64,000 bases of DNA from Marchantia polymorpha subsp. ruderalis (taxonomy: Eukaryota; Streptophyta; Marchantiopsida; Marchantiales; Marchantiaceae), in assembly GCA_037833965.1 (NCBI GenBank), contig AP031355.1:22035501-22099500 (forward strand). Direction: 5' to 3'. The notes under the pieces are model-generated. The model was not told where the DNA came from and did no database searches. It saw only the letters and a list, made by a program, of their open reading frames with translations. Positions 13,623 to 60,265 of the stretch are shown one piece after another (the first letter of the stretch is position 1; every line of letters begins with the position of its first letter). The position numbers and the translations under genes were made by a program.

Positions 13623-16600
13623 ATGGCCGATCCACCTGCTACGCCCGCTCAGGAGCCTGATAGGCGTCGGGCTGCCCCGCCTGCATTTGCAGCTCCTGTT
13701 GTTCGCACTTTCTCCTCGACTCTTGCTCCCGCCACTCCGACTCCTCCACCACCATTCCGCCAGTTCCCTCCCTCTCTAGCCACTGGCGATAGTGAAGAAA
13801 CACCGGGTTCGGCCGTCATAGTTGCTGAATCGGACAGCTCGTCTTCGCCAGCCGAAACTCAGGAGTCTTCGAATCAGGTTTATTCTAATGGATCATCGAG
13901 GGACATATTGGCTCCAGACCAACAATCGGATGCGAAATCTCAGCCCACTTTTGGCTTGGCCAACGGGAGGACCAATTTGATCCCAGGAGGTCCTCCTCCT
14001 GGCCCTCCAGGTGCCATCCCCATGGGCGCTCCACCAGCAAATTTTAACCATCCGCCCCACTTTCTAGGGCCACCACCGCTGCATCAATTTTCAGGCCCTC
14101 CTGGTCCTCCTCCTTTTTCCAGCCCGTTGCGCCCCATCCCTACCTTCACAGGAGTAGGAGCATCGCCGGTTAGAGGCAGTACTTTCTCCGAAATCCCTTT
14201 AGCTGCTGGGACACCTCCTCCCCAACCCGGAAGTGCGAATGGATATCCATCCAGTGCAGATCAGCCATTGTATAATACCCTCGTGGAGGACGACTTCGAG
14301 GCTTCTGGGCAATCAGCTTCTTCTTCGTTTGTGCTCTTCACATCTCAAACGGTATGTTTTATCCCTTGCCTTCAAGCTATAGCTAATTCTGATGTCAAAT
14401 AATCTTGATGGTGTGGAAGCGACTTGGAACTATGTGGACCAAGCTTATAATAAGCTGTGAAGTGCGAGGACATAGCCACAAGGTGTCTAATTTGGCATAA
14501 GTATCGTACACCTCTCTGTGTCTCCTACTGGAGATCTTCGGGCATCCTTATAATAATTTCTGTGCTCTGAAAGGCCCCTGGTTTAGTTTTCCTCGTAGGT
14601 TCAGAAGTTTTGGCCACTGGAAGATGGTCCATGTGACACATAGATCCAGATATTTAGGTCTCTTTTGCCTTGCTATTTAAGATACGGAATTGACCAGCTT
14701 ATGGCCTTGTTAAGAATGTGGTACTCAATCTGCATACCTTCCTTCTCTGTAAATCCTTCTCTTTGAATCCTTACACTTTAGCTTCTCTATATGAACATAC
14801 AGTGAATGCTTCCAATAAATCAGATGCAACTAGTGACAAAATCTTCACTATAGTACAAAAACGAGGGCCTTAGATATGGAAAGCTACAGCTCCACATTTT
14901 AAACTTGAATCAAGCACTGTTGAGGCCTGCGGTTGTACTTCTTAAACCCACTGGCTACGTGCATACTCGCAGATTTATAAATGAGTTTTAATTTGTGCAT
15001 GTTTTGATTCGCTGGTCTGTATAACAATCCTTGTCTATTCTCGCAGATGTTGAAAGATAAGAAGTTGACGAACACAGCGAGCTTGGGGTTTGGTGCCTTG
15101 GTGTCCCTGGGCAGAGAGGTTTCTCCAAGTCCGCCGATGTTAAGGAGAGAAGGCATCCGCTGCCGCAATTGCGGAGCTTATGTCAATCTTTTCTGTGCTA
15201 TTGTCCCAAGCTCCGGACACTGGAAGTGTGTTCTTTGCAACAAGCTAAACAGTAGTGAAGGGGAGTACAAGTCTGCTACTTCGGAGAATGTTCGTAGTTG
15301 GCCAGAGCTCGTAACGAGCGTTATAGACTATGCTGATGCTGGTAACAGGCGCCCTGGCTTGATGTCAGTCACAGATTCAACTATGGCTGCTCCAGTTGTC
15401 ATACTTGTTGATGAGAGTCTAGACGAACCTCATCTTCAGCATTTGCAAAGCTCCCTTCATTCATTTCTAGACTCCTTGTCGCCAACAACTAGAATTGGTA
15501 TAGTCACGTTTGGGAAGACTGTGTCCGTGTACGATCTGTCTGAGTTGGCATTGGCAGCGGCTGACGTGTTACCAGGTGACAGCACCCCTAGCCAGGAACT
15601 TTTGAAGATGTTGATATACGGCACTGGTGTTTATCTTGCTCCTATTCATGTATGTCTTGGTGTGGCTCAGAACATCGTCTCTTCACTTCGGCCTTATAGA
15701 GGGGATTTGCCGGAGGTGGCAAGAGACAGGTGTCTAGGGACAGCTGTGGAGGTAGCTCTATCTCTCATTCAAGGACCCGCCACCGAGCTTCCAAGAAGCA
15801 CAGTGAAAAGGTCAGGAGGAAGCAATCGAATTATTGCTTGTGTGGGTGGACCTAACACATTGGGATTAGGTTCTTTACCCTATTCAGATACCCATCCTAA
15901 TTATGCATATCTAGAAAAGAAGGCAATCAAACAGATGGATCAGTTAGGGCATGAAGCGCGACGATTGGACACGGCCGTTGATGTGCTGTGTGCGGGAACA
16001 TGCCCAGTAAGAATTTGTGCCCTTCAACCCTTAGTGAAGTCTTCGGGTGGTGTGTTGATCCTTCATGATGACTTTGGAGAAACGTTTGGAATAAATATGC
16101 AAAGGGCCGTGAGAAGAGCAACAGGATTCAGAGGTGTTCTGGAGGTGCGATGTTCTAGTGAGGTTGCTGTGACCCGTGTCATAGGTCCGGGAGAAGAAGC
16201 TCACCTGGAATCTTCTGAATTCCGCAAGGATAGCGCAACAGCTGTCCAACTGTTGAGTGTGGAAGATTGTCAGGGTCTAGCTTTGAATATGGAACTGGTG
16301 GAGAACATCCTTGGGGACTTCGCTTACTTCCAGTTCGTCGCTCGATACACCAACACCTACCACCTGCAGGTTACCCGTGTTATCACTGTCAGGCTCCCAA
16401 CTACGGGCAGCCCTTCGACCTACTTGCAAAGTTTGGATGACGAAGTTGCAGCTGTGCTCATAGCCAAGAAAAGTGTTCTTCAAGCCGAGAAGCCCTCTGA
16501 CCTAGCTGACGTGCGAGCCTCCCTTGATGAACGGGTGAAGGACATTGGGCTTAAGTTTGGCAAGCAGATGCCTAAAACAAAGGTTTGGAGATTTCCGAAG

Positions 16601-17897
16601 GAGCTACCAAGGTTGCCCGAGCTCCTCTTTCATCTGAAAAGGGGCCCACTGCTGGGAAATGTTGTCGGGCATGAGGATGAGAGGGCTGTCTACAGAAGCA
16701 TATTTTTGCAGGCTTCTTTCGATTTGGCTTTGCGAATGTTGGCTCCAAGGCTTCTCATGCACCGAGACGGGGGAACTTTCGAGGAGCTTCCTGCTTATGA
16801 TCTTGCTTTGCAGTCTGACACATCATTAGTCATGGATCATGGTACTGATCTTTTCATATGGACGGTATGTTTCTTCTCTAGTTCATTGCTCATGAGGATC
16901 TCATCAACTGAGTTTGGCTGAGCGTCATTGTGTACTCAGTAAAAGTTGGCCGGTGTAGCCTAGAACACGCACTGCTGCTCAGATTCAGTCAATTGTGGAG
17001 ACAGTAGTACTGAATTATTATTACTATTTCGTATCCATGACTGAATTTTTGAATATGTAAAATGATTGTAGTACTTTGATACTTTCTTTTTTTTGTATGT
17101 GTTGTATGTAGCCTATGTGGTTATCTAGGAATCCTGTAAATAGATTATCTGTATTTTTAATTACTATCGCATTTTCTTACTGCTCAAAGGTCAGTCCTTT
17201 CTTTGAGGTGTGTTAAATTTGATACACACATTAACTTCTTCATCTCGATTTAATTTTCTTCTTTCCAGGGACTGGATGTGGCAGCAGATGAAGCACTAAG
17301 TGCTGCATCAGCAGCAGCTTGTCGTACACTTGCCAATGAGTTGACAGAAAGTCGATTTCCATCGCCACGACTTCTTGCTTTCAAGGTCGGTTACATCATA
17401 GCTGAAGGGAAGACAATTTCCAAAAGCGTTTTCTTGAAGCTTGTTATGGTGTAGTTCAAGAAAGGGCTATGAGTTTTTCTTCTCGCACTCTACCACTCTG
17501 TACCACGTTATGAGTTGGATCTTGCTTGTTGATTGGTTTGCAGGAAGCGAGCTCGCAGTCTAGATATTTGAAATCTAGACTCATACCTGCCCACAAGGAC
17601 CCCCCCTACGAACAGGTACGTCGACGCAGCCTGTTTAAGGTGACACTGGTATTAAACACATACATAAACTTTCCTACAACGTCCGGAGCATCCACTATGT
17701 CTTGAACTGTACTTCCATCTCTAGACTTTGGCTGAAAGATGTTTTTTCGTGCTACACAGGAAGCAAGGTTTCCGCAATTACGGAGCTTAAGGCCAGACCA
17801 GAGGGGCCGGCTTAAAAGTAGTCTTATACCAACAGATGATCTCAGTTTCTGCGAGTGGATGCGGAGTTTAAAGCTTGTACCTCCGGAGCCCTCGTAG
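13623..17897 (+). CDS. SEC23-like COPII coat protein (divergent plant type)
   Basis: Five exons, 13623-14351, 15047-16864, 17269-17385, 17544-17615 and 17760-17897, join in phase 0 to 957 aa. SEC23 is the inner COPII coat subunit and SAR1 GTPase activator at ER exit sites (family knowledge). Domain order: a Pro/Ser-rich disordered N-terminus (about 1-245); a zinc finger with Cys282, Cys285, Cys304 and Cys307; a von Willebrand-type trunk starting near the VVILVDESL strand and SPTTRIGIVTFG; beta-sandwich and helical regions; and a gelsolin-like end with the TDLFIWTGLDV and LIPAHKDPPYEQ segments. The long N-terminal extension and sequence resemble the divergent SEC23/SEC24-transport group of plants more than canonical SEC23. 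Introns 2-4 cut the gelsolin part into small exons. The start is the first ATG after the GC-rich leader. Confidence 0.9.
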
Positions 17898-27751: not shown

Positions 27752-30700
27752 ATGGGGAATTTGTACAGTCGCAGTCCAGATCCGGTAATGTATATAAGCT
27801 CCCCTCGTATGATGGACGGGGCTCCTTTGAAGCAGGGCTGCCTTTCCATGACCCGGTGGCAAAGCATTAACCTCAGAGGTTTGGAGGAAGCCCGCACTCA
27901 CAAAGACGAGAAAATCACGTATGACTTGTCCATCCGAAATCTTCAATACAAGGTACATGGAGCTGGACTTGCAACATGTATGGACGTGTCGGGGTGAAAT
28001 GTCCTGAGTCTGCTCACTCTCGTGCGTGCAATATCGTCTGCCAGGTCCAGGTGAAGGAAAAAGGCGGAGCCACGAAAGATAAGGTCCTGCTCAACAACAT
28101 CAGCGCCAAGGCGAACCATGGAGAGGTTCTGGCTATAGCAGGCCCTTCAGGGTCATCTAAGTCCACTCTGTTAGATGCCCTTGCTGGGCGGATCGACAGG
28201 AGGAGCCTCAGAGGTTCAATTCTTGTGAATGGAATGCCAATTGATCAAACCTTCAGGCGTGTATCCGGTTATGTAATGCAAGATGATGCTTTGTACCCTG
28301 TGTTGACTGTCCGAGAAACATTAATGTTCAGTGCCAGGCTGCGCTTGCCATCCACCTGGACGGATGACCAAAGGATGGCGCGTGTAGAAATCATTCTGGC
28401 AGAGCTCGGCCTCCAACCTTGCGCCGACCTGGTGATTGGCGATGATTTGGTATGTTCCAACGAAAAATCAAGCCAATCAAGTTCATGTTTTGCAGGGCCT
28501 TGGAGATTCTTTCCTCTAAACTGGAGGTTTCGAGAGGAAGCTACGGAAGAACCTGTATGCCTTAAGACGGCGATCACCGTAGAATAGAATGCACCTGGCC
28601 ATAATGACCGTCAGTGAAATTTCTCACAAGACTGAAGCAAATGATGATTTCTCTTCTCATCCGTCTACCAGGAGCTTTGGATGCTCTTTAGAAGGGTTAG
28701 TTTGGTGGTGTGGTTGTTTTCAACCAAAAGCGTGCTGCATAAAAACGGCACCCCTACATCAGCATTAAGCTGACTGGTAGAATCATAAGTTTTGCCTTTC
28801 AGACCTCACTGCCTTTGATTGTTATCGAGCAAGCTGCTTAGGTCAGCTTTCACGATAACAATCAAAGGCAGCTTGGTCCCCCAAACTTCGAAGGCTATGG
28901 TTATTTGAGTAAGACGAGAGACCTTTGAAGCTTTTAGCACGTCGACATAGCTACAGAACAATTATCCTTTTCTGACGATTGTTCACCTTTTCCAGATTGA
29001 TCTATAACCAGCCAAGTTGTATGCCCCATGCCCCACATTGTCTGTTATGTTTCAACAGAACAAGTACAATTCACCATTAGAAGCATACTCGTCATGACCA
29101 TCAGCTATCGAAATAATGGGCTGCCTTCGACCTCAAGATGCTCTAATGGATGTCTTCTCTGGCTTTTCATCAGGTTCGAGGTGTTTCTCGTGGGGAGAAG
29201 AGGCGCGTTTCCATAGCTGTGGATCTTATGCATGATCCTGCTGTGCTGTTCCTGGATAAACCCACGACAGGGCTGGATAGTTTTTCGGCATTTCAAGTGA
29301 TGCAGAAGCTGCATACATTAGCTGAAGTTCACAACCGAACGGTGATCATCACCATCCATCAGCCCAATCATTCGATTCTTGAACTAATCCACAACACGCT
29401 TCTTCTGATCCAAGGAAACGTCATCTTCAGTGGGCATCACTCGGGCTTGGTCAATTACTTCAGCGACATTGGCTACAATATGCCTGAATATGTATCCTTC
29501 TCTGACCTACACCCACGTTGTTTTTCTCTATTATGTCTCCTGGCTCGTTATTCGCCCTGTATATTTTTGTTAAGTCGGCCATATCTAGTCAAGAGTCATA
29601 CTAACTAGCTCAATTCTCAAATGAATTCATAATCGTCATGAGATTGAAAATCGAAGGAATCACTGAAGGGAATAGAGTGAACCCGATGGACAAAAGAACA
29701 TGTGGTTTTGAACCTTGGCTGATTGGAAGAAGAGCTTTAGCTGTCCTCGTTCTAGTTTCCTCTCTGCATTCAAACTCCCCATCAAGATCATGATGGCATG
29801 CTCACATCATAATCCTCCCTGTAGTGTGATCAAATTCCATCAGTTCGAAGCTACTTTGTCGAACAGCTACGCCTGGAGCGGTCAGGTAATGCTGTTAATG
29901 TTCTGACGACATGAGTTTCTGTGGGTTAAAAGAGGTCGTAACGTTCGGTGACGTTGGACATGTCTTGGTTTGTATGCATCGATCCTGGACTAGCAACCCC
30001 TTAGTCTTGCTCTCACTTCTTTCGGGACTATGGAGTCTATGGCAGGCTCCTACTAATGAATGACATCTCTCTATACCCGAAACTAATGTCAGTGTGAAAG
30101 TCCATAGCTTTAGCTCCAACTCAGCTACATTTGTCCTTGATCATGAGACTGGGGGCTTTGGATATGAAAGTGGTGCATGAGTGGATGAGTTGAACCTGCC
30201 TAGGCTTGCGGCCGCGTCCTCAGAGGACGGAATATACTCCTGACTTGAGGCAGGATCGAGCTGGATCTTGGAAATGATGAGAGAGAATTTCACTCATTGG
30301 TAAGAGCCTGCCATAGCCTTGGGAGGAGGAGACATCGAGAGGCAGATCTATATTCCCACGAAATCGACACAATTTATTACATGAATGCGGGGGATGTTCT
30401 TAAGACACTTCAGTCTAGAAGCTCAACTGAGGGTTCATAAAGTCAAAAGGGAGATTGGTCAACAAGTTCAGTCATTTCAGCAAAAAACGAGTCATTTCTC
30501 GCAGGTTCATTTAAATAAGGATCCAGAGTGTTAAGTATGTTTACTTATCTACAAATCCTCGAACTTTAAACATATTAGCGAGGATATTCGGCTACTGTAT
30601 CTATTAAAAGCTATTTTATGGTGGGCCGGGAATTAGATGCATCAAACTCTAGGACCATCATCGGACTTGTGGACAACAGAATTTGATTAAAGTATTATCA

Positions 30701-32937
30701 AATTGCAGCAAAGAAGAAAAAATTACCAGTGGAGCCTTTGTTGGTTCCCTGCGCAGGTCAATCCGCTGGAATACGCCTTGGACACGATGCAGAAAGTGAA
30801 GACCTCTTCTGTCGGTGTAACACAGCTTCTGGAGCTCAAGGTGCAAAGTTCCACTCTAAATGCTTCCTCAATATTCATATAAGTATCATCTTCTCTACTG
30901 ATCATTGCCTGTTAGAAATCATCAGTAGTGCACGTTGGTAGGAAGCTTTATTGTGCCAATCTGTACCGCTCGATAAATGAGGTCATAATTTATCACGGTT
31001 GAAAATACTCCACGGACACGGTTTCTAACGAAGTTTGAACCAATCACAAATTCTAAATTCATCAAGTGCATTCGAGCTTATGGCCCAGTCAAAGAGCTCA
31101 CGGATGCATCTCCAGAAAGCTTCCCCACTTCATCCATATACTACTGTATCAGATATACAGAAATTAAGTTAGTCAATTTCGCATGAATTGTTGCGCAGTG
31201 CAGGATATTCCAAAGACTTGACCACGACCGACCGTGGAAATTGTTGTAGGTGGTGAAGGAGAAGGAGAAGATCATGGACGGACAAGCAGCTAGGGAACTA
31301 GATGCAGAAGCCACAGCTTCGTCACGTGATCTCGACGATGATATAAATATGACTTTCGCCACATCCTTCCGCTCCGAACTCTATGTGCTTGGCGAGCGTA
31401 ATGTCAAGCTCATTCTGCGAACGAGGCCCCTATTTTTTGCAAGAATGGCAGTCTTGGTACAGTTTAAACCTCAATCTTCAGTTCTGCACGCATCCTGCCT
31501 TCTAAGCTGCATGGAGAATCGAATTTGTCTTGCGATAGAGAGCATCTGTGAGGTCCCAGAAGTACCCCCGCGAGGTTTCAGAATTCCCCGAAACAAAAAA
31601 AAATAATCTATTTTCTGCCGTTAACAGATATATAGAGAAATGATCCCCACGAGAGTTTCACAATAACCTTCTTGCAAAGCTAGCCAGTACCATTCTGCAA
31701 GGGTTTATGGATTCTTCGCCCATCAAGATCTTGACTTCGGAATCCTTATAATCAGATGATGGCCCCCCATGTTTGTTAACCTAGGGCGTGTCTCTGACCT
31801 TTGTTGACCCGGAGAACACATGCAGATGCACGTTCATGCTCCTGATAGACCATATGCTCTGGCAAGCTAGTCCTGTCGATAAATTGAGGTCCATGAATGA
31901 ATGATGTTAGCCATTTCTATAATCTCAACTCTGCAGCGACCATTCCGTCGCAGGTTGTGGGAGGACTCGTGACTTCGACATTCTTTCGCACGTTGTCGTA
32001 CGACATGGAAGGCGTGACGAAGCGATTGTCGATGACGGCCTTCCTGCTGGCTTACTGCTCGTTCACCTCGACGCAAGTGCTGCCGATCTTCCTGCAGGAG
32101 CGCAGCATATTCATCCGGGAAGCGTCGAGGGGGGCTTACCGTCCAGTATCCTTCGTCTTGTGCCAGATTCTGGCCCACCTGCCGTTCCTCTTCGTGCAAG
32201 CGCTGGCCTTCTCGATCCTCACCTACTTCATCGCCGGGTGGGCCAACAACGTCGGAGCCGTGGGCTACTACGTGTGGATGTGGTTCCTGGTGCTCATCCT
32301 GGCGCAGTCGATGGCGGCTTGCTGCGCAGGATGGATTCCTAACATCATCATTTGCCAAGCCGTTCTCTCGGCCACCTTGTCCTTCTTCATGCTCTTCTCG
32401 GGCTTCTTCCTCCGCAAGTACGTTCTCTCCAGAACCGCGTTGTTTCCGCAGTCGCAGTCGCAGTCGTGGTCGGCAGGAACGCCATCTGCCTCACTAACTG
32501 TCAGCCCCCTATAAGTGTGAAACATGTTTCATTTCCGCCTGCCTTTGCATATAAATGTTGAATTAACTGAGAAGGCTTCAATGCTTATTGGAAGAGACGC
32601 GGTCAAGAATAATCAATAACCTGGGATGATGTGCCTAACTCGTCTGCTGATCGGTTCGTGCAGAGATGCGATTCCCAAGGGATGGCTATGGTTGCACTAC
32701 CTTTCGGGTTTCAAGTATCCTTATGAAGGTTTGTTGGTGAATGAGTTTACCTCGTTGTGGAACACAAATTGGGGCGACGACCAGACGAACGTTAACTTCT
32801 ATCAAGTTCTTGAGAAATACGATCTCGAACATGTGAGTCTAGTGAATAGCGTATTTGTGATGACTTTCTTCATAATTTTTTATAGAGGTTTGTATTATTT
32901 AGCCTTCGTGAAGAGTGCAAGGGATGTCCGAAAGTGA
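27752..32937 (+). CDS. ABCG half-transporter with altered ATPase motifs
   Basis: Seven exons, 27752-27952, 28045-28449, 29174-29491, 30757-30840, 31250-31456, 31954-32417 and 32664-32937, join in frame to 650 aa. ABCG half-transporters (NBD then six-helix membrane domain) dimerise and export lipids or cell-wall precursors at the plasma membrane (family knowledge). The NBD shows a Walker A-like GPSGSSKST (100-108), Q-loop YVMQDD, signature VSRGE (206-210), Walker B-like [13 protein letters not shown] and the His264 switch. Three key positions differ from consensus: Ser105 for the last Walker A Gly, Arg208 for the first signature Gly, and Lys231 for the catalytic Glu. The membrane part has [23 protein letters not shown] and [19 protein letters not shown], all typical. 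The N-terminal MGNLYS could be myristoylated. The frame and splice sites are intact, so this may be a non-catalytic partner or a very young pseudogene. Confidence 0.9.
28809..28871. repeat. Perfect 19-bp inverted repeat (hairpin) in ABCG intron 2
   Basis: CTGCCTTTGATTGTTATCG at 28809-28827 is matched exactly by its reverse complement at 28853-28871. The 25-nt spacer holds a second perfect pair, AAGCTG at 28832 and CAGCTT at 28844. The transcribed strand could fold into a 63-nt stem with a small internal loop. Confidence 0.9.
30028..30320. repeat. Imperfect 45-bp inverted repeat in ABCG intron 3
   Basis: The segment around 30035-30075 (CTATGGCAGGCTCCTACTAA onward) matches, with a few mismatches, the reverse complement of about 30276-30318. 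The spacer is about 200 bp. It lies within the 1265-bp intron between exons 3 and 4 and looks like a fold-back or small terminal-inverted-repeat element; no target duplication was identified. Confidence 0.65.
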
Positions 32938-35285: not shown

Positions 35286-35536
35286 TAAAAGCATCCCGAT
35301 CCCGTCTCGCTCGATCGGCGTGGAGTTCGTTCGACGTAGTGCCTCGAGACGTCTGACGTGGAGGCGTCAGAGACCCGGGGACGGACAGCTGGCGCGCGTC
35401 GTGGGCCGTCGCATGGACAAACGGGGATCGATGGGGACCGATGAGGTGGCCCGGCCCAGCTCGGCCTGCGCTCGACGTCGAGACTCGGCATGGCATACGA
35501 CGAGCAGAGCGAGAGTCCGTCGGAGCGACGACGACA

Positions 35537-36082
35537 ATGGCGATGGCGGCGGCTCGAGCAGCTTGCGAGCGTCTGCGAGCGAATGGCAGCAATTCGCTGG
35601 CCGCCGCCGCCGTCCGCGGGCGCTGGCGGAGCTTTTCGGCCGAGCCCGGGCACGGGCACGGGCCGGCGAGAGTGAACATGTGGGAAGCGCCCGGGAGCCC
35701 TGGCAAGTGGAAGGAAGAGCATTTCGTGTTCGTGTCGCTGGCGGGCTGGGGCGCGCTCTTCTTCGGCGGCTACAAGGCGGCCACCAGCGGAGCCCCCAAG
35801 AAGAAACCCCCTTCTCCTCCTTCCAAATCGCCCCGCAAAATCGATGCCAAGCCCGCTGCCAAATCGCACCCTAAACCTGAACCCAAGCCCGTGGCCAAAC
35901 CCGCAGCCCGGAAACCCGAGCCCCCCAAGAAGCCGCCTCCCCCTGCCCCGAAGAAGCCGCCGCCTCCGAAGAAGAAGAAACCAGAGCCGAGTTCGAAGAA
36001 GATGCAGAGCGCTAAGAAGCACAAGTATTATGATGATGATGATGATGATGATGACGACGACGACGACGATGATGATGATTGA
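35537..36082 (+). CDS. Small mitochondrial-like single-span membrane protein with poly-Asp tail
   Basis: Intronless, 181 aa. Residues 1-35 look like a mitochondrial presequence: Ala/Arg-rich, no acidic residue except one Glu, ending in an RSFSA cleavage-like site. Next comes a WEAPGSPGKWKEEHF segment, one membrane span (about 62-79), then a long Lys/Pro-rich stretch (about 85-160) and 16 consecutive Asp to the stop. The short conserved-looking block before the span suggests a plant mitochondrial inner-membrane subunit, but I do not recognise the family. The gene sits in a sharp GC-rich island. An in-frame ATG at 35441 would add 32 residues; the ATG at 35537 gives the better presequence. Overlapping long frames on both strands are composition shadows. 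Confidence 0.65.
   Translation: MAMAAARAACERLRANGSNSLAAAAVRGRWRSFSAEPGHGHGPARVNMWEAPGSPGKWKEEHFVFVSLAGWGALFFGGYKAATSGAPKKKPPSPPSKSPRKIDAKPAAKSHPKPEPKPVAKPAARKPEPPKKPPPPAPKKPPPPKKKKPEPSSKKMQSAKKHKYYDDDDDDDDDDDDDDDD
36032..36079 (+). repeat. GAT/GAC trinucleotide repeat coding for the Asp16 tail
   Basis: Sixteen GAT or GAC codons run directly into a TGA stop. Slippage in this microsatellite would change the length of the acidic tail without changing the frame. Confidence 0.95.
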
Positions 36083-43757: not shown

Positions 43758-46700
43758 CGATTGCGAGGCTCTCAGCGACAATCCTCAGAGCCCGATCCCT
43801 CCAATCGATCGATCGATCGATCAATCAGTGGATCGGTGCACTCAGACCCAACTCTTCCTCCTAAACCCCCGATTCTTGAACCCACCAACCAATATGACTG
43901 CTTGCTCGATTGACCACAGTGTCAACTCACAGGAACACGGACTACTACGAACACATTTTAGGAGTCGGACATCGCCATGGGTCCACTTCCCTCATTCATT
44001 CGAGGAGCACCTTCAAACGTCAACTCAGAGCGCCAAAGGCGAAGGCGAGTGCGAGTGGCGCCATGGTGTTCTTCACGCCAAAAGCAATGTCCTCTGAGCA
44101 ATGCGCTCTCTAACCGAAAGTTTTGTCTATTCTTCCCACAACGGATCAGCTTCACTGTAGTGGCTGTTCAGCTTTGGACCGACCTAACCGAAGAGACATA
44201 GACTGGAACATCTAGAACCTCGAGGTACCGTATGCCATGGCAGTGGGTCGTGGGAATCGAAGGGTCAGAAGCCACAGTGGCCTAATGTGGAAACTCTAGG
44301 CAAGCATGGCGTAGGGATGGCTGGCCAGAACAGCAGCAACCGCACTCCTCGTTCGGACACGAAACGTCCACTCGAAAGGTGAGGCGAGGCGAGGTGAGGC
44401 CAAACAGGAGGAGGTTTGCTGTGGATAGAAAGCACTGCAGACCAGGTTCTTTGTTCAGCCAATCGAGGTTGCACCGGATGGTGGAAAGTTAGCAAGCCTT
44501 GGCGCATTCGGAACCAGCTCGCTTAATATCTCTTTCGCTTCTTCATCCGACATGGAGGATTCGTCGGATGAGGATTCTTCGGGTCACAAGTTTTCCTCAC
44601 TGGAGTCTTGGCCAGCCCGGCGTTCAGGGAGGGACGTGCTTCGTTCTCTGCACTCCCCTCCCCTCCTGCCAACTCACACCTTCATCTCCACCTCTCCCAT
44701 CTCGAGCACATTGGTCTTACACTGCGTCGTGCCAGTCTATTCCCCAAGCATATGATGTACGATCTGATTCCCTGAAACTACAGAAATAGTACGAGGTGGC
44801 GAATTCGTATCTGGAGATCCAGACCAACGAAACACGAGTGCGTCGTGAGAGATGAATAGACCGCGATGCCCAGGCCATCAATTTGCTTTCGCAAGGCACG
44901 TGTGGAGAGCGTGGAATGCCCGTTATCTTCATGGTAGTCGGATTGATTGACCGAAGTTTTCATGACTCGAAACAGAAACCCGAGAACAAATCTGCAATCT
45001 TCGTTCCTTGATGGTGATCGGCATTTCCGGCATCTTCTTCTCGTCCCCAAAGCCAGCCCATCCGAAGGCTTCTCACACCATACAGAAGCTGCACGCTGGT
45101 GCTGGGTTTTAGAGAAACTACCGATCTATGTTCGCCAGGTACAAACGAAATTATCTTCAAGGGTCGAAAACAACTCTTGTGCATATCGGGCACAGACAAT
45201 GAACACTCTAATCCTGGGCAACAAAAGTAGTGAGATCTGAGTTTGTTCGAAGATCATAACCATCCATTTGTATGCTGAGCACAGCAGTTTCAGTTTTGGA
45301 ATACTGTACCAATTCTCCTAATTTTTGTGGTGGGCTAAATGAAATTTACAGCTGTCAGATGACATCAAACGAGGTCTTCAGCCACTCGGTGAAGAATTGC
45401 GCTCCGGATCTACATCGCAATCATGACTCGTGGACTGCCGCGAACACATTCCAAGCTCGACCTTTCCAGCTGAAAGCTGACTCCGGCTCTCTTCGAAGGA
45501 TTTGCATATCGCAACGTACTCTGCCAAAGGGAATGGTGACCACGAGGCCCTGCGAAAACTGTCTCTGACATGTCCATCGCTCGAACATAAAGGGCCTCTC
45601 CTGTCGACATTAACAATTCTCCAAAGCCCTCCGTGAGCTCTCCTCCGCGGCCGTGACTAGGCAATAACAATACATTTCCTTGGCGTATAATAAGAATATA
45701 TCTTATAAATAGGATAAGAATATATTTCCTTGGCGTTGAAAGGTGCAAGACAACCTGTGGATTCAGTGGAAAGTAGCATAGCGTTATTGACTCTTGGCGA
45801 TGTGTATCAATGGTAAAGTCGACGTGAATATCCCCTTTAAATTTCACAGCTGATTAAAAAGTAATACCTGAACCTGAGGTCGAGAAATATTCATCCCACT
45901 ATCTTAAACGTAATTACCGAGATAAAATTAACTACAAATAACATAATATATAATGAATCATCATGGTACATGTTTGTTTGTATGTGTTGTACAGGGATAA
46001 TCACTATATGCAATCTAAAATGGAACGAAATAATAAAATTTTATGCACTCTTTCAACAATACATGTCTCGTATTTCTATTTACATCCCATGTAAGTGTTA
46101 TGCGAGTAAGGTATTGATCATTTAACATGACATTAAATTTAAAAAGTTTTATTCAGAATTCAGTGACATGTAAGATGGAAATTGGCACGTTTGCAGTTGG
46201 AACTTTGTCAAAATATTTCTCATCAATTGCAATGCATTTCAACTTTCATTCACATGAGAGATGAAATATATTTTCAAACATCATTGTAAACATCATATTC
46301 GTAATAGTAAATTCTGGTGCCTTGCTATGATGTTCTTGTTTCTTTCGTTTTGTAGAGCGTTGTATATTATATTTTGTTAAAACATTATATCTTAATATTA
46401 TTCTTAGCTTTGTAAACCTCAAACGGCTCTCACCTCCTAACTCCACTTATAACTATGAACTTTCAATCTTATGATTCAGATCTCTATGATAGAGACCGCC
46501 CAAGTTGTAAATTTTGTTCTTCAATTTATTTTTATTTTCAAAAAATATATATTTTCAAAAAATCATAAATAATTTTTTTTTCAAAAGACATTATTGATAG
46601 GCAGCATGTTAAATTATCTATATGAATGAAAAAAATGCAACATAAAAATTATAATAATCATTGAGTACGAAATTTTTAATATATATCCGAAATTATATAT

Positions 46701-47067
46701 GTTTATGAATTATTATATTGAGAAAAAAAATTTATTTTTTCTTTTTTTTACATTCCAAATTATAAATTTATAAAATTTTCTAACATTTTAAAAATATTTT
46801 CAGTAAAATTTTATTCTTAATTTTTTTATTTGAATATGTTTAAAACTATCAAAAGCATTCGAATTATAAAAATTAACTATGTAGTGATCAAAACATTAAG
46901 CCATCAAATCTTATTTACGAGTATTATCATTTCTCAGATAAAATATAACAGCACACTTTCTCTTTACGTGTTATCGTAAAATAAAAAATATTATTTGATA
47001 TCTACAATTATTTAAATTCAACATATGTTAAAACTCATAAAAAACTTGCCAAAATATTATATATTTG

Positions 47068-47071
<4 letters not shown>

Positions 47072-47102
<31 letters not shown>
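47072..47102. repeat. TA dinucleotide microsatellite
   Basis: An uninterrupted alternating TA run of about 31 nt sits inside the AT-rich block. Confidence 0.95.
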
Positions 47103-47104
<2 letters not shown>

Positions 47105-49328
47105 AGACATTTCTATGAAGTACCGTAATATACAATACTTAGTATATCTAACTACTGAAATTTTTTATTGTCATATGATACATTGACCTTAAAAATATAT
47201 ATACGAGTCTCGTTGATGTACGATGTTGTTTATTATTCACGTTCTTTTTCATGTTGTTTGATCAGATAGGTAAGAAGAAATTTCATAATCTTTTTTCAAT
47301 CTTTTATGTGTTTATCATGTTACTGAATTTAGTAAAATTTCATATAATGAATTCTATAGCTTTACATATAATAACTTTAGATTTTTGGTGATGTTGTTTT
47401 TATCAAATATTACTTGTATTGTATCTATGTTCAGACACATATTCATATCATAATTTGTACACTGTAGTAGTGTCAAACCTTACATCTTTAATGTTTTTAT
47501 ATAAATAAATTAATAAATGATTAATTTTTTACAATTTGATTACATAGAATCGTCATATCAAAATTGATTTATACAATTCATATAATAGATTTATATAATA
47601 TTCTATGCATCTGACAGGAAATGATTTATTGTAACATAATATTTATTTGAAAAATAATTTGATATATTGCAAAAAACCACACACCATGCTAGATATTTTT
47701 CAAAGATAATCTACCATGACGATTTTATCCACAAAAAATTCATCATGTAAATCTAAGGTTATTCAGACATAACGCGGTTAGTCCCCAAGGACCTGAAACA
47801 TCAAACTCCAGGGCCCTCCAAGGTTAACTCCATCGCTCTGATTTCGAGTTACAAACTATTAAAAGAAAACCGATTCCGGAACTCCGATCCCCATCTTCAA
47901 ACACACGAGCCGTCTCGCCCCCTGCTATTCGGTACATCATTGAGAATAATAATGATATGCGCCTTATACTCTTCTTTATCATTTTGATGATCATTATTAA
48001 GCTCAATTGTAGATATAAAATTTGTAAGTGAATTATCAAAAGAAAACACAAAAAATTGCTGAAATTCTTTTTCTTGGTTCACCATTGAGAGATACGGAAG
48101 TGAGGTTACAAGTAAATTTACTGAAAAGGATAGTAATTTGCGTCTCTAATAGTTTTTGTGAACTTTCTTATGTGGTGATAGTCTAATCAACTTAACTAAT
48201 TTGGATTAGTCTAATATAAGTCTAATCAAAATCTCAGTGAATTTATGGTAACAACATCACAAACATATACCTTACAAAAACATCAAAATAATAAATTTAA
48301 GCAGAAAGTAATTTAATATATAGAAAAAAATTGTTAAAAATGTTTTAATTTGTAATAAAAAATATGAAAATAAAAAATGCTATTATACTTAAAAGTTAAA
48401 ATTAGTAATTTTGATTAATTTCATTATTAATAACATTTTTATCTAAAAAATTGCACTCTACTGTACATGTTATAGGCAAAAAATTAAAATTTAAAGTTAA
48501 ATATCTTTCTAAATTTTATTTTTTTTCATAATAAAATTAATAATGTTTAAATTGAAGTATAAATTAGAAAATATGTAATCAAAGCTAATCATGATAATTT
48601 TAGTTAGTTTTAATGCTAAAATCATGCACTTACAAACATTTCAACGTTGACATAATATTAACTTGATTGATTTTGGTAAGCCTATGACATAAAATTAACA
48701 AAATAATTTTTCAAAACTATAGTTTATGCTAGTAAAGTTAATATTAATATTCGTATATTACAAAACTTAATTAAATTAATTGATTATGATCAAATCCATT
48801 AGAGGTAATCAAAGCATGGATTAATGACTAACACATCAACGAATTAAATTATAAAATGACATATAAAAAAATTATCTTAACTTATACACCATCGGTTCAT
48901 TTGACAGTATGAGCACATGTTGGTTGAACCACACCATAAATTAAAGTAATCTAATACCAATTTAAAGTTCAGATTGTGAATTAAATTTTGCAGTACAATG
49001 ATATCTTGACACATACAATTAGAGTTGTGGGATAAATAAACGTGAGAATGATGATGAAGATACTATACTCAAGCTTTAAAAACATGCAATTAGACATTAG
49101 CATGAAGTTAATCTAAATATTTAATGTTTTTATTCATATTATTTATTTTAATCACACTTATTTATATAAAATATTTACAAAATATAATAATTCTAGCATG
49201 ACGAATTTTAGATGCAAACTTTGATGCGTTTGTAAGATAATAAGCAAATTATATTCGACTAGTTTGTAAAGCTAATCGTTAGCTTATTGTGTTTATCACT
49301 TTGGATAACATGTTTATATTGTCGTCTA

Positions 49329-49374
49329 CACTTTATATATGATACTAGCTAATGCTAGTATCATGTATAAAGTG
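49329..49374. repeat. 46-bp near-perfect palindrome (MITE-like)
   Basis: The 21-bp arm at 49329-49349 (CACTTTATATATGATACTAGC) pairs with 49354-49374 with one mismatch around a TAAT loop. Outside the arms, ATTGTC on the left and GACAAT on the right also pair, after a 5-nt insertion on the left. The form suggests a fold-back miniature element. Confidence 0.85.
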
Positions 49375-50248
49375 ACAATTGTGTTAGTTCATTGGGGACC
49401 ACGTAGATGGAAATGAATAGGATCAGGGTTTAGAAATCTAGCGATCATGTTTTGATCTTCAGGTCGCACGTGCCAAGTGTACTCGAATTTGATAGTTTAA
49501 ATATATCGGATATAAGTATATATATACATTTCAGTGCTATTTGGGTTAGGTTTTGCCTTTTATTCCATTTATTCACTGCAAGGCTACTTTTCCCTTTACC
49601 TAGTCGGCAGTTGTTTGTGTTCAGGGAAAAATTGGGTTCTAATGTACATGTGAATCAAGATAAATGATCGAAAGAACGACTTAACATCTTGCAAATGGTC
49701 GACCACAATGATTCGCAGGCAATCATGATGCGGCCATAGAGCATTGATAGTCGGATAATGATGGAAATATTCTCGATGGAAACAGCAGGAGATGAAGCCT
49801 AGTAATACAGCGAAAAGGATAAGAAGTGGCATAATCTATTCCACACACCTGAATAGAAATATCCTGCAGAATAAACCTGCTCCACATCGAGAAGGCAGCA
49901 CAGCACGGACACCGCATCATGTCCGATCGACCAAAACGACGGCCCGCATCTGAAGGCCCATGCGCTCTCTCTCTCTCTCACGCGTTCGTCTCCATCCATC
50001 TCTAGGTCTCGCTCCACTCCACGAACTTCCGTCACATGCTCGACGACGACGACGAGGCCTGGACCCGCACGGACCTGGACCTGGACCCGACGGGAAGGGG
50101 CCTCCCTCAGTCAGAACGCGTACCTCCACCCACCACCGCGGTTCGAACCCCGCTCTCTGCCGGTTAAAGACGTCCGGTCAGAGTCAGAAGGCGGTGAGAG
50201 CGGAGAAAGTGAGAGAAAAGCAGAGCGAAAGGGTGGGCTCCTGCTGCC

Positions 50249-55326: not shown

Positions 55327-58300
55327 AATCCCGGAGGGAGGCCTTTAGGATATGAAGCCTTGTAAAATGTTAACATTGTTTTGCTTCTAAGGATTGCATA
55401 TCTATATAATACCCCGTTGAAGTGGCCAGATGAAAGTAGTGTGCAGGATCTGTCTACTCCAATTGTGTGAAAAGCATGAAGTGGCCATGTAGGGGTTTGT
55501 TTAAGAGTCAGACTCAATTCCTCCTTCAGGTTGGGATTTGAATGTTGCCGCATTTCTTAGTCTGACAAGGTCCATGTTGTTAGGTGATTTGAGTCTTTCC
55601 ATCTTGATGGTATAGTGAAGCCCATTTTGATACGCATATCACTGATTCAGAGTAAGTAGGCTAGTATCAGAGATCACGGATTAGGCAGACGGTAGAGCAG
55701 TTTAGGGAGAAAAGTGAAGGACAATGGAGTATGGTGAAGTGCTTCTGAATGTCACAAGCATGATGAATACTCGCGAATGTCACCAGAACAGAGGATGTCA
55801 CATTACTTCTGGGATACACATCCTAGGTAGGAATAAATTCCAAACCATTGTGCAGTGCTTTGTGAGCCTTTTTTCTGACTGTAGGGCTTAATAAAGTCTT
55901 GTTCAAGATTTCTAACGCTAATTCCTGATGACTGTCGAAGAGATTTTTTTCTGGGAGTCAAACTTGAGTCAGTTAATGGTCTTGTGGTAGTTCTGGACTG
56001 CTCGGTTTGTTGAATGTGTTAACTTTCTGGTAGTTCTTGTGGGCCTTTCATTTCGTGAAACTTCAAGAGGTTCATCTCATCGTCGGTGAGGGAATCTACT
56101 CACACGGAGTCTTAGTTCATCGAAGGTGATCTATGGAAATATAGATTTGCACATCTGGAAAGTTTGAAGATTAAATACTGGTTCTGAAAATATGCCAGTT
56201 AATGCAAAATACCCGTAGCTCATTCGTTCTGAATAAGTATATTTTGATCCCCAAGCGCTTTGCCATATTTAAATAGTCCACTGTAATTCTGAAAGCTACC
56301 CATATTTCCACAGCCGAAGGTGATAACTTGCTCCAGTCACACGGGACATTCAGTAGAGCTCCAAAGATAAGAGATCCTAGATATTATGGGAGAATGTGGG
56401 GAACCAACTCATCTACTACGTCAATTTTGTACTTCTGTTCCAGAACTTGATTCAAAGGAATTGGTCCGTGTTCTTCGTGTTGGTACTTCTTCTGGTCTGC
56501 GTCTGTCGTTACTTTCTTAGTTTAGTGCTGGAGGCAAGGGAAATTTGCGCTATCATCTGCGCCTAATCATTCTGGAAGCTGGAAGAGACTGGCAAGGAAG
56601 GACGTAAGCACCGTGCCATGTTTTCCCGATGGCATGATCCAAGCAGTGCCCGATTATGTCTAAGTTGACAAATACTGGTTAGATTCTCAGGGTCGAGAAA
56701 TCGGTACACTGCTAGCGAAGATTATTTTGGGCCAAACCATCTCAGAAATGGTGGGTATAATTCTGTGGTCATACTTTTTTCCGATGTTACATGACTGATG
56801 AAATCAGTCAATTTTGTCGAATTGTGCTTAATGATAATCACTACCCTTTGCAGCTTGCAGATAATATTTTTGATCAAGAAAGCCATCTCGTAAATATGTA
56901 AAAGCGATCAACAGTTTATGTTATTTACTTGCTCCACGAGAAGATTACATTACGGAACTAAATTCTGTTGGATTTTGTCTCTGACAAAATCAGATCTAAG
57001 TAATTCCTTGATTCACAACAATTATTTTATATGAAAAGAACATATTAATTTTAGTTTTTTATCCTTTGAACTAGCTATCTTTGTGATGATATCATGCTTG
57101 CATTTGGTACTTAAATTTCTAGAAAATTTTGTACATTCAGTAAAATGCATAAAATGAATAATCCCAACAGAAAAAAGTAATAGGCAATTTATCTTGATGA
57201 GGTTACATGCAGAATAATTTAAATATTTAAATCTGAAATTTTAAACTTGTTTCAAAAAAAGAAGACAATATGTAATAATAAATTAATTATATTTATATTA
57301 ATTTAAAATTTGGTTCAAAAAATGTAAGATAATATGTAACAATATATTAACTATAGTTATAATTATTTAAAACTTGGTTAAAGAAAGTAAATATACTATA
57401 TAAAAAATATTTAATTATAGTTATGATAATATAAAACTTTGTTAAGAAATTTAGTCATATGTAATAATTATATGTTAAATGACAACCGTTAAATTAACTA
57501 TCAATTTTTTATTCATGTTTTGGATTATGTAATTTTTGTTCGCAATATAAAATTTTTTTCAACACAAATTACGGAATGAAATCTAATATATTTTATTTGA
57601 AAACTAGAGCTAGGAAAATATAATTAATAATAAAAAAAGATAGAGAAAAGTCATACATAAAGAAGATTTTTCTTAATGAATTATATTTTTGTTTCTTTAA
57701 CATAAAATCTCAAAATTATTACAATATACATTTTTGAAATAATTTATTTCAATGCATGAATTATTTATGCATTAAATTAAATTTGGATAGATTTTAATAT
57801 TAAATCTACCTTCAATTTGGAATAATTAAAACTCATGTAAAAATTGTATATTTAATAAAATGATATATATACTCAATAAATTTCACTCTTCTACTTAATT
57901 TGTTGCAAAATGTAATACACACTGGTTACAACAATAAAGGTTGATAACATCGTGGTACAATCTTATCTCAATCATACATCAATTCAATTCATTTCAATCA
58001 ATTGATTCAAATCTTATGTTGTATTATATATTTAGCTTTTGTATGTGATTATCTATTTATTTTTTCAAAATATATTTCAACGAAAGTATACATCTCCATA
58101 CATTATAAGAAATTTTCTTTTGTTTGGACCTTGTTCATAATGAACATCAAATGTAGAATTTATAAAATTTTGACATATTCTACTAAGATTCAAACTGAAA
58201 ATCATAATCCTTTGTATTTTAAAGATACTTGATAATACATTTCATAACTTTTCAATGCAATTTTTCTAAATTTAATTATTACATGCTCACATTTCCTATA

Positions 58301-59573
58301 ACTAGAATAATACTAGATGTTGTGAATGTACTCAAACACATGAGAATATTCACTATCTTGTAATTGTGAAAGTTTATTTTCAAATATATAGATTGAATTT
58401 TGAGCTAAAAAAACTTGAAATAGATTGTCAAGATGTATATTTTATTTCAATAATTTCTATTGAAGAATTATAAAAAATTTAATTGTAACAAATATGATAA
58501 GAAGAAGTTCTATTGAAAATGCATATATGATCACTGTTTTATGATTATCTAAATTAATACTTGAAGTAATTAATCCAGATTTTTATCATACTTGTCATTT
58601 TATAAATATGATTTTTTCAAATCAAATTGAATTCCATATTTGATGAAAATTTTTTTTAATTCATATCATTGATTGACATCAATTTTCTTTGTCGAGATTT
58701 TGTTAAAATTGGCCAATGCTTTGTTCCGTTACCAATACTTGACCTGGTTCTCTTGGGCGAAAGTCGAGTATACTGACAAACTAGACTCCAACGGAAGATT
58801 GCAACACAGCTTAATATTTGTAAATCTGTTGCATCCATGATTTAGACTAATCTAGACTAACTCACCATTTGAGAGGTTAATATTTGTAAATCTGTTGCAT
58901 CCATAATGTAGACTAATCTAGACTAATTCACCATTTGAGACATAAACATCAAAAAAGTTGTTCCCTCTGTAATGCATCTATCTCGTTGTATTGTATCAAA
59001 CTCATATTACATAAAACAATTTCATGTAATTTGAATACCTTAAGTCTGAGATTTTATACGAGGCCAGAAAAAGTCTACTAGTTGCATCATACCGTCCAAC
59101 TAAAAAACATAATCCATTAAGAAAGTGAAATAAATTAGATCCAACTTTTCCGCAGTAAAGTGGATTCTGCACACATGCCTAAACTGCTGACATTAAAATG
59201 ACTTTTGTCTCCACGTGCATTCGTTTCGAAATGCAACGAAATTTGGCGAGTTTCTAGTATCAATCGACCGCTTCTTGGATTATGTACGCCTTTTTTATGT
59301 GCGGTAGCATCTCATATTTGCTTGACCATTGAACAAAACAAACTTCCAAAATACGAATTGCATATAAACCCTTGGTGACCGCTAGTTTTGTACTCATTCT
59401 AGTGTACGAATATGAACGATTTCTGGATTTAAGAAAAACAGAACCGTGTGATTTCTTCTCGATCAAAAGTTACTTCTTTCATTGACTTTAAACAGAAAGA
59501 ATTGTGTGAAAACATAAGAAGAGAAGAAAGGTATAGGAAAATAATATATTAGTCTCAAATACTGTGTACAACT
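55327..59573. other. Intergenic, largely AT-rich
   Basis: About 55.3-56.8 kb is balanced and includes the probable 3' UTR of the TOC64-type gene. About 56.8-58.7 kb is very AT-rich with no usable frame. A 66-bp direct duplication lies at 58.81-58.94 kb. No protein or RNA family was recognised before the tRNA. Confidence 0.55.
58811..58942. repeat. 66-bp direct duplication
   Basis: TTAATATTTGTAAATCTGTT begins at 58811 and again at 58877, and the two 66-bp units match with only a few differences through CACCATTTGAGA. The units are adjacent, so this is a simple tandem duplication. Confidence 0.9.
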
Positions 59574-59647
59574 GGTTTTATGGTGTAGTTGGTTATCACG
59601 TCAGTCTAACACACTGAAGGTCTCCAGTTCGAGCCTGGATAAAGCCA
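59574..59647 (+). tRNA. tRNA-Val (AAC)
   Basis: A full cloverleaf can be drawn: acceptor arms GGTTTTA and TAAAGCC (with one G-U pair) plus discriminator A; a D arm around GTGTAGTTGGTTATCAC; anticodon stem TCAGT/ACTGA with loop CTAACAC, anticodon AAC; and a T arm TCCAG-TTCGAGC-CTGGA. The B box GTTCGAGCC is a good match. There is no intron, and no T4 pol III stop follows closely, which leaves some doubt about whether it is expressed. Confidence 0.9.
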
Positions 59648-60265
59648 TTTCCTATTGCCCCTCGCGACAACGAGAGAGTTGCTGGCTCGCTGGGTTTCCA
59701 TACTTTATGGTATGACCCATATTTCCTTGCAAACATAACGATTATTCACAAGGACAGACATTGGGTACATAAACCTCTTGACCAGTCACAACTTTCAGAT
59801 GCTCTTCCCAGAAGCAGCCGATTCCTCAAATTATTATAAACGTCGAGAAGGGAAAAACGTACAAGCAAATTATATAATAAGCTCACAACGCTTGGATATG
59901 CCTGACTTTTAGTGATGTTTTGGTTTGAGTGAATTTAGTATACTCCAGTGTAGAAGAGAATTGTAACATTATTGGGCATCTGGCGAGTAGTTATGGTCAA
60001 AACCACTTAATTACACTAATATATAAAGTCTGTTGGCATTGAATGGTGGAAGATGCAAAAATAGCAGGATGGAGTGCATTGAGCTGATTGCCAGGCATTT
60101 ACAATTGCAATCTCGATGCCCTTAATACGGGATGCAGTTTGCCACTGAACCCTCGTGCCCTGCCGGGACGGACATGCATGGAGCACATTGTGTGGACCTG
60201 AAGCCTTCCTTTTGCTTCCCTTCTAGCGAACTGCTGCTGCACGACAGGCTTCGCTGCATCATCGT

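Follow-up and report, generated by a model that had tools for sequence, protein, structure and literature searches.

The question raised by this locus is what an ABC transporter gene still encodes when all three of its core ATPase motifs are altered and the rest of it appears preserved. The gene lies in a window of 64,000 nucleotides (the whole stretch of DNA analysed) at 22.04–22.10 Mb of contig 6 of the Marchantia polymorpha subsp. ruderalis genome, which comprises 241 Mb in nine contigs. Rebuilt from the sequence, it is a half-size ABCG gene at 27752–32937 on the forward strand, with seven exons encoding 650 amino acids and a stop codon in place (Table 1). All six introns are GT–AG, internal stops are absent, and a splice-aware protein-to-DNA alignment of the product returned the identical six introns. 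The rebuild confirmed the original prediction of an intact 650-aa frame with intact splice sites, Q-loop and His264. The interval 28045–29491 then assigned to the gene does hold the altered motifs, but it spans exons 2 and 3 only. Within intron 2, 63 bases (window 28809–28871) match their own minus strand at 88%, as a hairpin-like inverted repeat.

Table 1. Exons and ATPase motifs of the half-size ABCG gene, in window coordinates.
Feature	Position	Strand	Details
Exon 1	27752..27952	+	aa 1–67; start codon; donor GT
Exon 2	28045..28449	+	aa 68–202; Walker A and Q-loop; AG...GT
Walker A	28141..28167	+	aa 100–108, GPSGSSKST; S105 = TCT at 28156–28158, Gly expected
Q-loop Gln146	28279..28281	+	intact, VMQDD
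Exon 3	29174..29491	+	aa 203–308; signature, Walker B and H-loop
ABC signature VSRGE	29183..29197	+	aa 206–210; R208 = CGT at 29189–29191, Gly expected
Walker B and D-loop	29249..29281	+	aa 228–238, FLDK; K231 = AAA at 29258–29260, catalytic Glu expected
H-loop His264	29357..29359	+	intact
Exon 4	30757..30840	+	aa 309–336; degenerate copies elsewhere in genome
Exon 5	31250..31456	+	aa 337–405
Exon 6	31954..32417	+	most of transmembrane domain; PF01061 at aa 380–588
Exon 7	32664..32937	+	end of transmembrane domain and stop codon

The protein consists of one NBD followed by one ABC2-type TMD. In Pfam, ABC_tran (PF00005) matched aa 83–234 with 90.8 bits (cut-off 25) and ABC2_membrane (PF01061) matched aa 380–588 with 132.8 bits (cut-off 26.9). 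The closest solved structure is Arabidopsis ABCG16 (PDB 8wtm, E = 4.8e-110), which has the same NBD–TMD order and aligns over both domains (aa 54–336 and 371–589). Unlike the window protein, ABCG16 carries the consensus motifs GASGSGKST, ISGGE and FLDEPTSGLDS, and it falls with three genes of this genome (C3:20.56, C4:17.84 and C8:5.71; loci are named by contig and position in Mb) in a group apart from that of the window gene (100/100). Because of its domain order, its best match to a plant ABCG and intron places common to its paralogues, the window gene is classed by its sequence as a half-size ABCG (WBC) transporter by descent.

The substitutions first described, Ser105 in Walker A, Arg208 in VSRGE and Lys231 for the Walker B glutamate, were all found exactly as claimed. 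Compared with the consensus of ATP-hydrolysing proteins, GPSGSSKST does not match the Walker A pattern GxxGxGK[ST], VSRGE does not match the signature [LV]SGGE, and the catalytic glutamate of Walker B is missing (FLDK). The Q-loop glutamine (Q146) and H-loop histidine (H264) of an ATP-hydrolysing ABC protein are both present. Position 208 is glycine and position 231 glutamate in 10 of 10 other aligned rows. Glycine precedes the lysine in 16 of the 18 distinct P-loops found by a pattern search (49 loci), the exceptions being the window gene and one paralogue. Judged by its motifs, the window chain is very probably unable to hydrolyse ATP alone; structural statements on the protein rest on sequence alignment.

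A protein search of the same genome gave at least 78 matching stretches, a number that includes the exons of the window gene itself. Eight paralogues were modelled; the N-terminal exons of several models were uncertain and were trimmed before alignment. The five closest are C6:7.62, C6:6.90, C2:26.24, C6:19.78 and C3:9.01, and in four of these the motifs are consensus, the exception being C6:19.78. The signature and the Walker B glutamate are normal in all eight models and the Walker A glycine before the lysine is present in seven. Among the seven paralogues in the codon printout, this residue is GGN in six, and TCC (serine) in the seventh, at C6:19780659–19781147. C3:9.01 lies outside that printout; its motifs, GPSGAGKST, VSGGE and FLDEPTSGLDS, were taken from its protein model. 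The six introns of the window gene have counterparts in C6:6.90 and C2:26.24, and also in C6:7.62, where the fourth intron was set by hand. Those of C6:19.78 correspond as well; its modelled fourth donor lies 35 bases later, yet a GT stands at the shared place. C3:9.01 is without these introns in its core, which is one long exon.

The exceptional paralogue, C6:19.78, is like the window gene in having a TCN serine before the Walker A lysine (GRSGSSKTT) and matching intron places, but its signature, LSGGE, and its Walker B, LLLDEPTSGLDS, are consensus. The description of the window gene as altered at all three motifs is therefore true, but the Walker A change is not private to it, since this paralogue has the serine too. 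Among the aligned sequences, only the window gene has R208 and K231, and their codons are each one base change from paralogue codons. When the whole genome was scanned for this P-loop pattern with its serine encoded by TCN, exactly two genes matched, that of the window and C6:19.78; the AGY-serine form of the pattern gave no match. A reversed control pattern gave five matches genome-wide, so the count of the P-loop scan is itself at chance level, and the weight of the scan lies in both matches being real P-loops.

When human ABCG2 is left out of the tree, the window gene groups with the canonical C6:7.62 at a support of 81/89, which is not starred. Forcing it together with C6:19.78 costs 5.98 log units and is not rejected (p-AU 0.065). 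When human ABCG2 is included, the window gene has no settled place. In the tree that omits human ABCG2, its end branch is 0.84, versus 0.68 for C6:7.62, 0.69 for C6:19.78 and 1.15 for C3:9.01. Both serines are TCN, two changes from glycine, so the residue could go back to a common ancestor, with a reversal in C6:7.62, or could come from a local conversion or from two separate gains. The earlier argument from the two base changes needed in Walker A loses force, because C6:19.78 also has a TCN serine. Elsewhere in the tree, C3:20.56 and C4:17.84 form a close ABCG16-like pair on different contigs, with end branches of 0.025 and 0.20 (100/99).

In an ABC dimer, each ATP site pairs the Walker A and B motifs of one chain with the signature of its partner, as stated in passages of PMC8403869 and PMC7756269. 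In the ABCG dimers with one degenerate site that are described in passages of PMC8403869, PMC7756502 and PMC7756269, each chain carries part of the lesions, and these come together in a single composite site. Thus the signature ISTGE of human ABCG5 and the Walker A GSSGCGRAS of ABCG8 both fall in one site; the changes inactivate the transporter when moved into the intact site (passages of PMC7756502). The window gene is like this pair in that the same signature glycine is altered as in ABCG5 and Walker A carries a lesion as in ABCG8. It differs in that the lesions of ABCG5/ABCG8 lie on different chains and in one site, so that NBS2 works (same passages of PMC7756502); in addition, another Walker A residue is changed in the window gene and the catalytic glutamate is also lost.

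In fungal full-size Pdr5, too, Walker A, the Walker B glutamate and a signature carry lesions, according to passages of PMC8421411 and PMC7756269. Its half without the Walker B glutamate nevertheless keeps VSGGE, the bad signature belongs to the other half, and NBS2 is intact (same passages). The P-loop changes G905S and G908S inactivate Pdr5 (passage of PMC8421411). By count along the ABCG16/PDB alignment, these two glycines align with G100 and G103 of the window protein, and S105 stands at the third P-loop glycine, G910. In the passages compared, Pdr5 also has a histidine replaced, whereas the window gene keeps H264. We take the replaced histidine to be that of the H-loop.

Because the three lesions of the window gene share a single chain, neither ATP site of any dimer is free of damage. 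A heterodimer with one degenerate site, as in ABCG5/ABCG8, was ruled out by this geometry, the signature and Walker lesions being in one chain, and the likeness to such dimers suggested by the original prediction was not borne out. The one-degenerate-site pattern fits the C6:19.78 paralogue better than the window gene; by its motifs, the product of C6:19.78 could form one clean ATP site with a canonical sibling.

Selection was measured with a branch model on five codon-aligned genes (561 columns), with the tree fixed with C6:7.62 as sister; p values were worked out from the likelihoods. Over the whole gene, omega was 0.141 on the window branch versus 0.104 on the other branches, and a single omega fitted equally (lnL −8898.91 versus −8898.59). 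Omega = 1 on the window branch was rejected (lnL −8909.28, giving a likelihood-ratio statistic of about 21 and a p of about 4e-6). The NBD, to which attention had been drawn at the outset, is not relaxed (omega 0.120; omega = 1 rejected, p about 0.009). The TMD gave 0.111 versus 0.105 in the paralogues, and omega = 1 was again rejected (p about 0.0002). dS is saturated on the window branch (1.33–3.34), so the test spans a long branch and a recent death lies beyond its reach. The result indicates constraint on the window gene through most of its past, but not that it is alive today.

The ten other rows share 70 invariant columns, and the window gene keeps 63 of them. The seven positions lost are K177R, G208R, R211K, G217A, E231K, N390L and L501W, and four of them fall in aa 208–231, which could be local relaxation of exon 3. 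In the same test, eight of the ten other rows lose 0–5 of 63–68 positions; C3:9.01 (8 of 71) and human ABCG2 (27 of 90) lose more. Omitting human ABCG2 puts the window gene at 13 of 103, narrowly the highest loss among ten rows (C3:9.01, 12/102; C6:19.78, 8/98). Position 105 enters the count if C6:19.78 is omitted; the losses are then 3 of 13 catalytic positions versus 5 of 63 others, a difference that is not significant (Fisher p = 0.13), and the catalytic list was drawn up with the finding already in view. In each of the ten other rows, at most one of 12 or 13 catalytic positions is lost. Compared with its relatives, the window gene loses conspicuously many invariant positions, but catalytic residues are not significantly over-represented among them. 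Nine relative-rate comparisons showed no consistent excess, with p < 0.05 in one only, that of exon 3 with C6:19.78 as outgroup (19 versus 4, p = 0.003); for exon 3 the other two outgroups gave p = 0.31 and 0.84.

The reading that we favor, with a probability of about 0.5, is that of a catalytically dead half-size ABCG which would be kept as a folded, non-hydrolysing, probably attenuating partner. As the scheme with one clean site is unavailable, such a partner is judged the most likely role. The window subunit would dimerise with a canonical sibling. Candidates for this partner are present in the same genome, as found by the paralogue search and the models, and the closest in the tree is C6:7.62. 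S105 and K231 would spoil the ATP site built from the subunit's own Walker motifs and the partner's signature, while R208 would spoil the other site, where the signature of the subunit faces the Walker motifs of the partner; in a homodimer both sites would be ruined. The mixed dimer might bind substrate or nucleotide and would turn over poorly. The subunit would then be a brake or regulator of a sibling pump, a natural dominant negative, and would not be a helper with one working site. A non-catalytic partner or a dominant-negative copy had been proposed for this gene. The loss of hydrolysis indicated by the motifs and the unlikelihood of long neutral decay speak for that proposal, and the subunit may have a dominant-negative or attenuating role, but the accompanying comparison with dimers that have one degenerate site did not stand.

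Other functional roles were considered. A functional heterodimer, in which transport would still be driven by one weak site that combines VSRGE with the Walker motifs of the sibling, is improbable. The signature serine and second glycine are still there, and passages of PMC7756502 and PMC8403869 give ISTGE for ABCG5, but in the site that is not needed; in the window gene a bulky arginine would sit in the only site that could work. Moreover, changes of this kind placed in the intact site of ABCG5/ABCG8 inactivate the transporter (passages of PMC7756502), and the half-size homologues with alignments shown, ABCG16 and ABCG2, both have glycine here. A role independent of any partner and of transport, for example as a homodimeric lipid-binding or trafficking protein, would fit a TMD constrained as in the paralogues (omega 0.111 versus 0.105). 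Nevertheless, the same constraint is equally expected of a heterodimer partner and positive evidence for such a role is lacking, which makes it very improbable. A sequencing or assembly error in the motifs hardly merits belief, given four or more base differences spread over two exons with the frame unbroken, and a Walker A serine of the same codon class in a second gene.

The view that random decay is an unlikely cause was upheld by the lack of any stop, frameshift or lost splice site, the dN/dS of 0.14 with omega = 1 rejected, and the 63 of 70 columns kept. Neither damage to frame or splicing nor relaxed dN/dS marks the gene as a pseudogene, the latter at an omega of 0.141 with saturated dS. 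A long-dead pseudogene was ruled out by the intact frame and splice sites and the branch omega. A recent redundant duplicate was rejected as well: among the best non-self DNA candidates in the genome no recent intact duplicate was found, those touching coding exons matching at no more than 69% over 250–262 bases, or 77% over 71. This comparison sets aside degenerate exon 4 fragments of 87–91% identity.

The main rival to the dead partner is a very young pseudogene, in which the signature and Walker B changes would be random lesions preceding any stop or frameshift, and the Walker A serine would be older, tolerated and shared with the paralogue. Both private lesions being one base from paralogue codons agrees with this, as do the losses at non-catalytic invariant positions (K177R, R211K, G217A, N390L and L501W) and the non-significant excess of catalytic losses. 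Neutral decay was computed from the window gene's own codons, with d in substitutions per site. At d = 0.01, frame and splice sites survive with a probability of 0.36 without indels and 0.076 at an indel ratio of 0.1, and at least 2 of 15 catalytic residues are altered with a probability of 0.043. The joint probability at this d is 0.016 without indels and 0.003 with the assumed indel/substitution ratio of 0.1, and it peaks at 0.018 over the six d values tried. At d = 0.03, the survival of frame and splice sites has a probability of 0.047 without indels and 0.0004 at the ratio of 0.1. A neutral period long enough for at least 2 of 15 catalytic losses thus usually breaks the frame, which counts against a young pseudogene. 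Elsewhere in the genome, exon 4 and its intron recur in degenerate form at C2:18.33, C2:0.87 and C6:8.94 Mb. The live exon 4 has one private change in 84 sites versus 7 and 10 in two dead copies; this is tempered by the live copy being slower in the intron too (7/283 versus 17 and 14). These counts agree with constraint on the live copy, but so short a comparison is no proof. A very young pseudogene is possible but needs luck, and we give it a real, though clearly minor, share of belief.

A wider proposal may be made, which we advance only tentatively: ATPase function could have been lost by degrees in one plant ABCG group, from the canonical C6:7.62 through C6:19.78, altered in Walker A only, to the window gene, altered in three motifs. 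The end of this series would be a pseudo-transporter subunit whose cis lesions poison both sites and make it a brake on sibling pumps. It is well established that ABC transporters can have degenerate ATP sites, and one site stays whole in the cases compared from published passages. Lesions all in cis break that arrangement, and the gene would offer a natural test of a dead ABC half-transporter as a plant regulator, with the semi-degenerate C6:19.78 paralogue as an intermediate for comparison in the same genome. The literature passages compared contain no example of an ABC regulator of the cis-lesion brake kind. Among the literature matches listed, nothing was recognised on this gene or on a plant ABCG altered at all three motifs; these were titles and abstract starts, which are weak evidence of absence.

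Two of the exon 4 fragments belong to 3.4-kb stretches, C2:866021–869420 and C6:8937434–8940833, which are 99.6% identical on different contigs. Both hold the degenerate exon 4 and part of intron 4 (window 30727–31127) at 91%. They have a sharp edge at window 30727 with unrelated DNA beyond, and the copy at C2:18.33 Mb shares that DNA at 83%. The exon 4 fragments look like gene-fragment capture by a mobile element.

Other features of the window were also recorded. A 637-aa open frame at 15008–16921 (+) has the Sec23/Sec24 trunk, zinc finger, beta-sandwich and helical domains of a COPII coat gene. At 35357–36082 (+), an open frame with no Pfam match encodes a proline- and lysine-rich stretch followed by a terminal run of 16 aspartates. 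Two AT-rich blocks, 46001–50000 and 56001–60000, have 25–31% GC, compared with 42–54% in the 2-kb bins between them. The second block contains a tRNA-Val (AAC) at 59573–59648.
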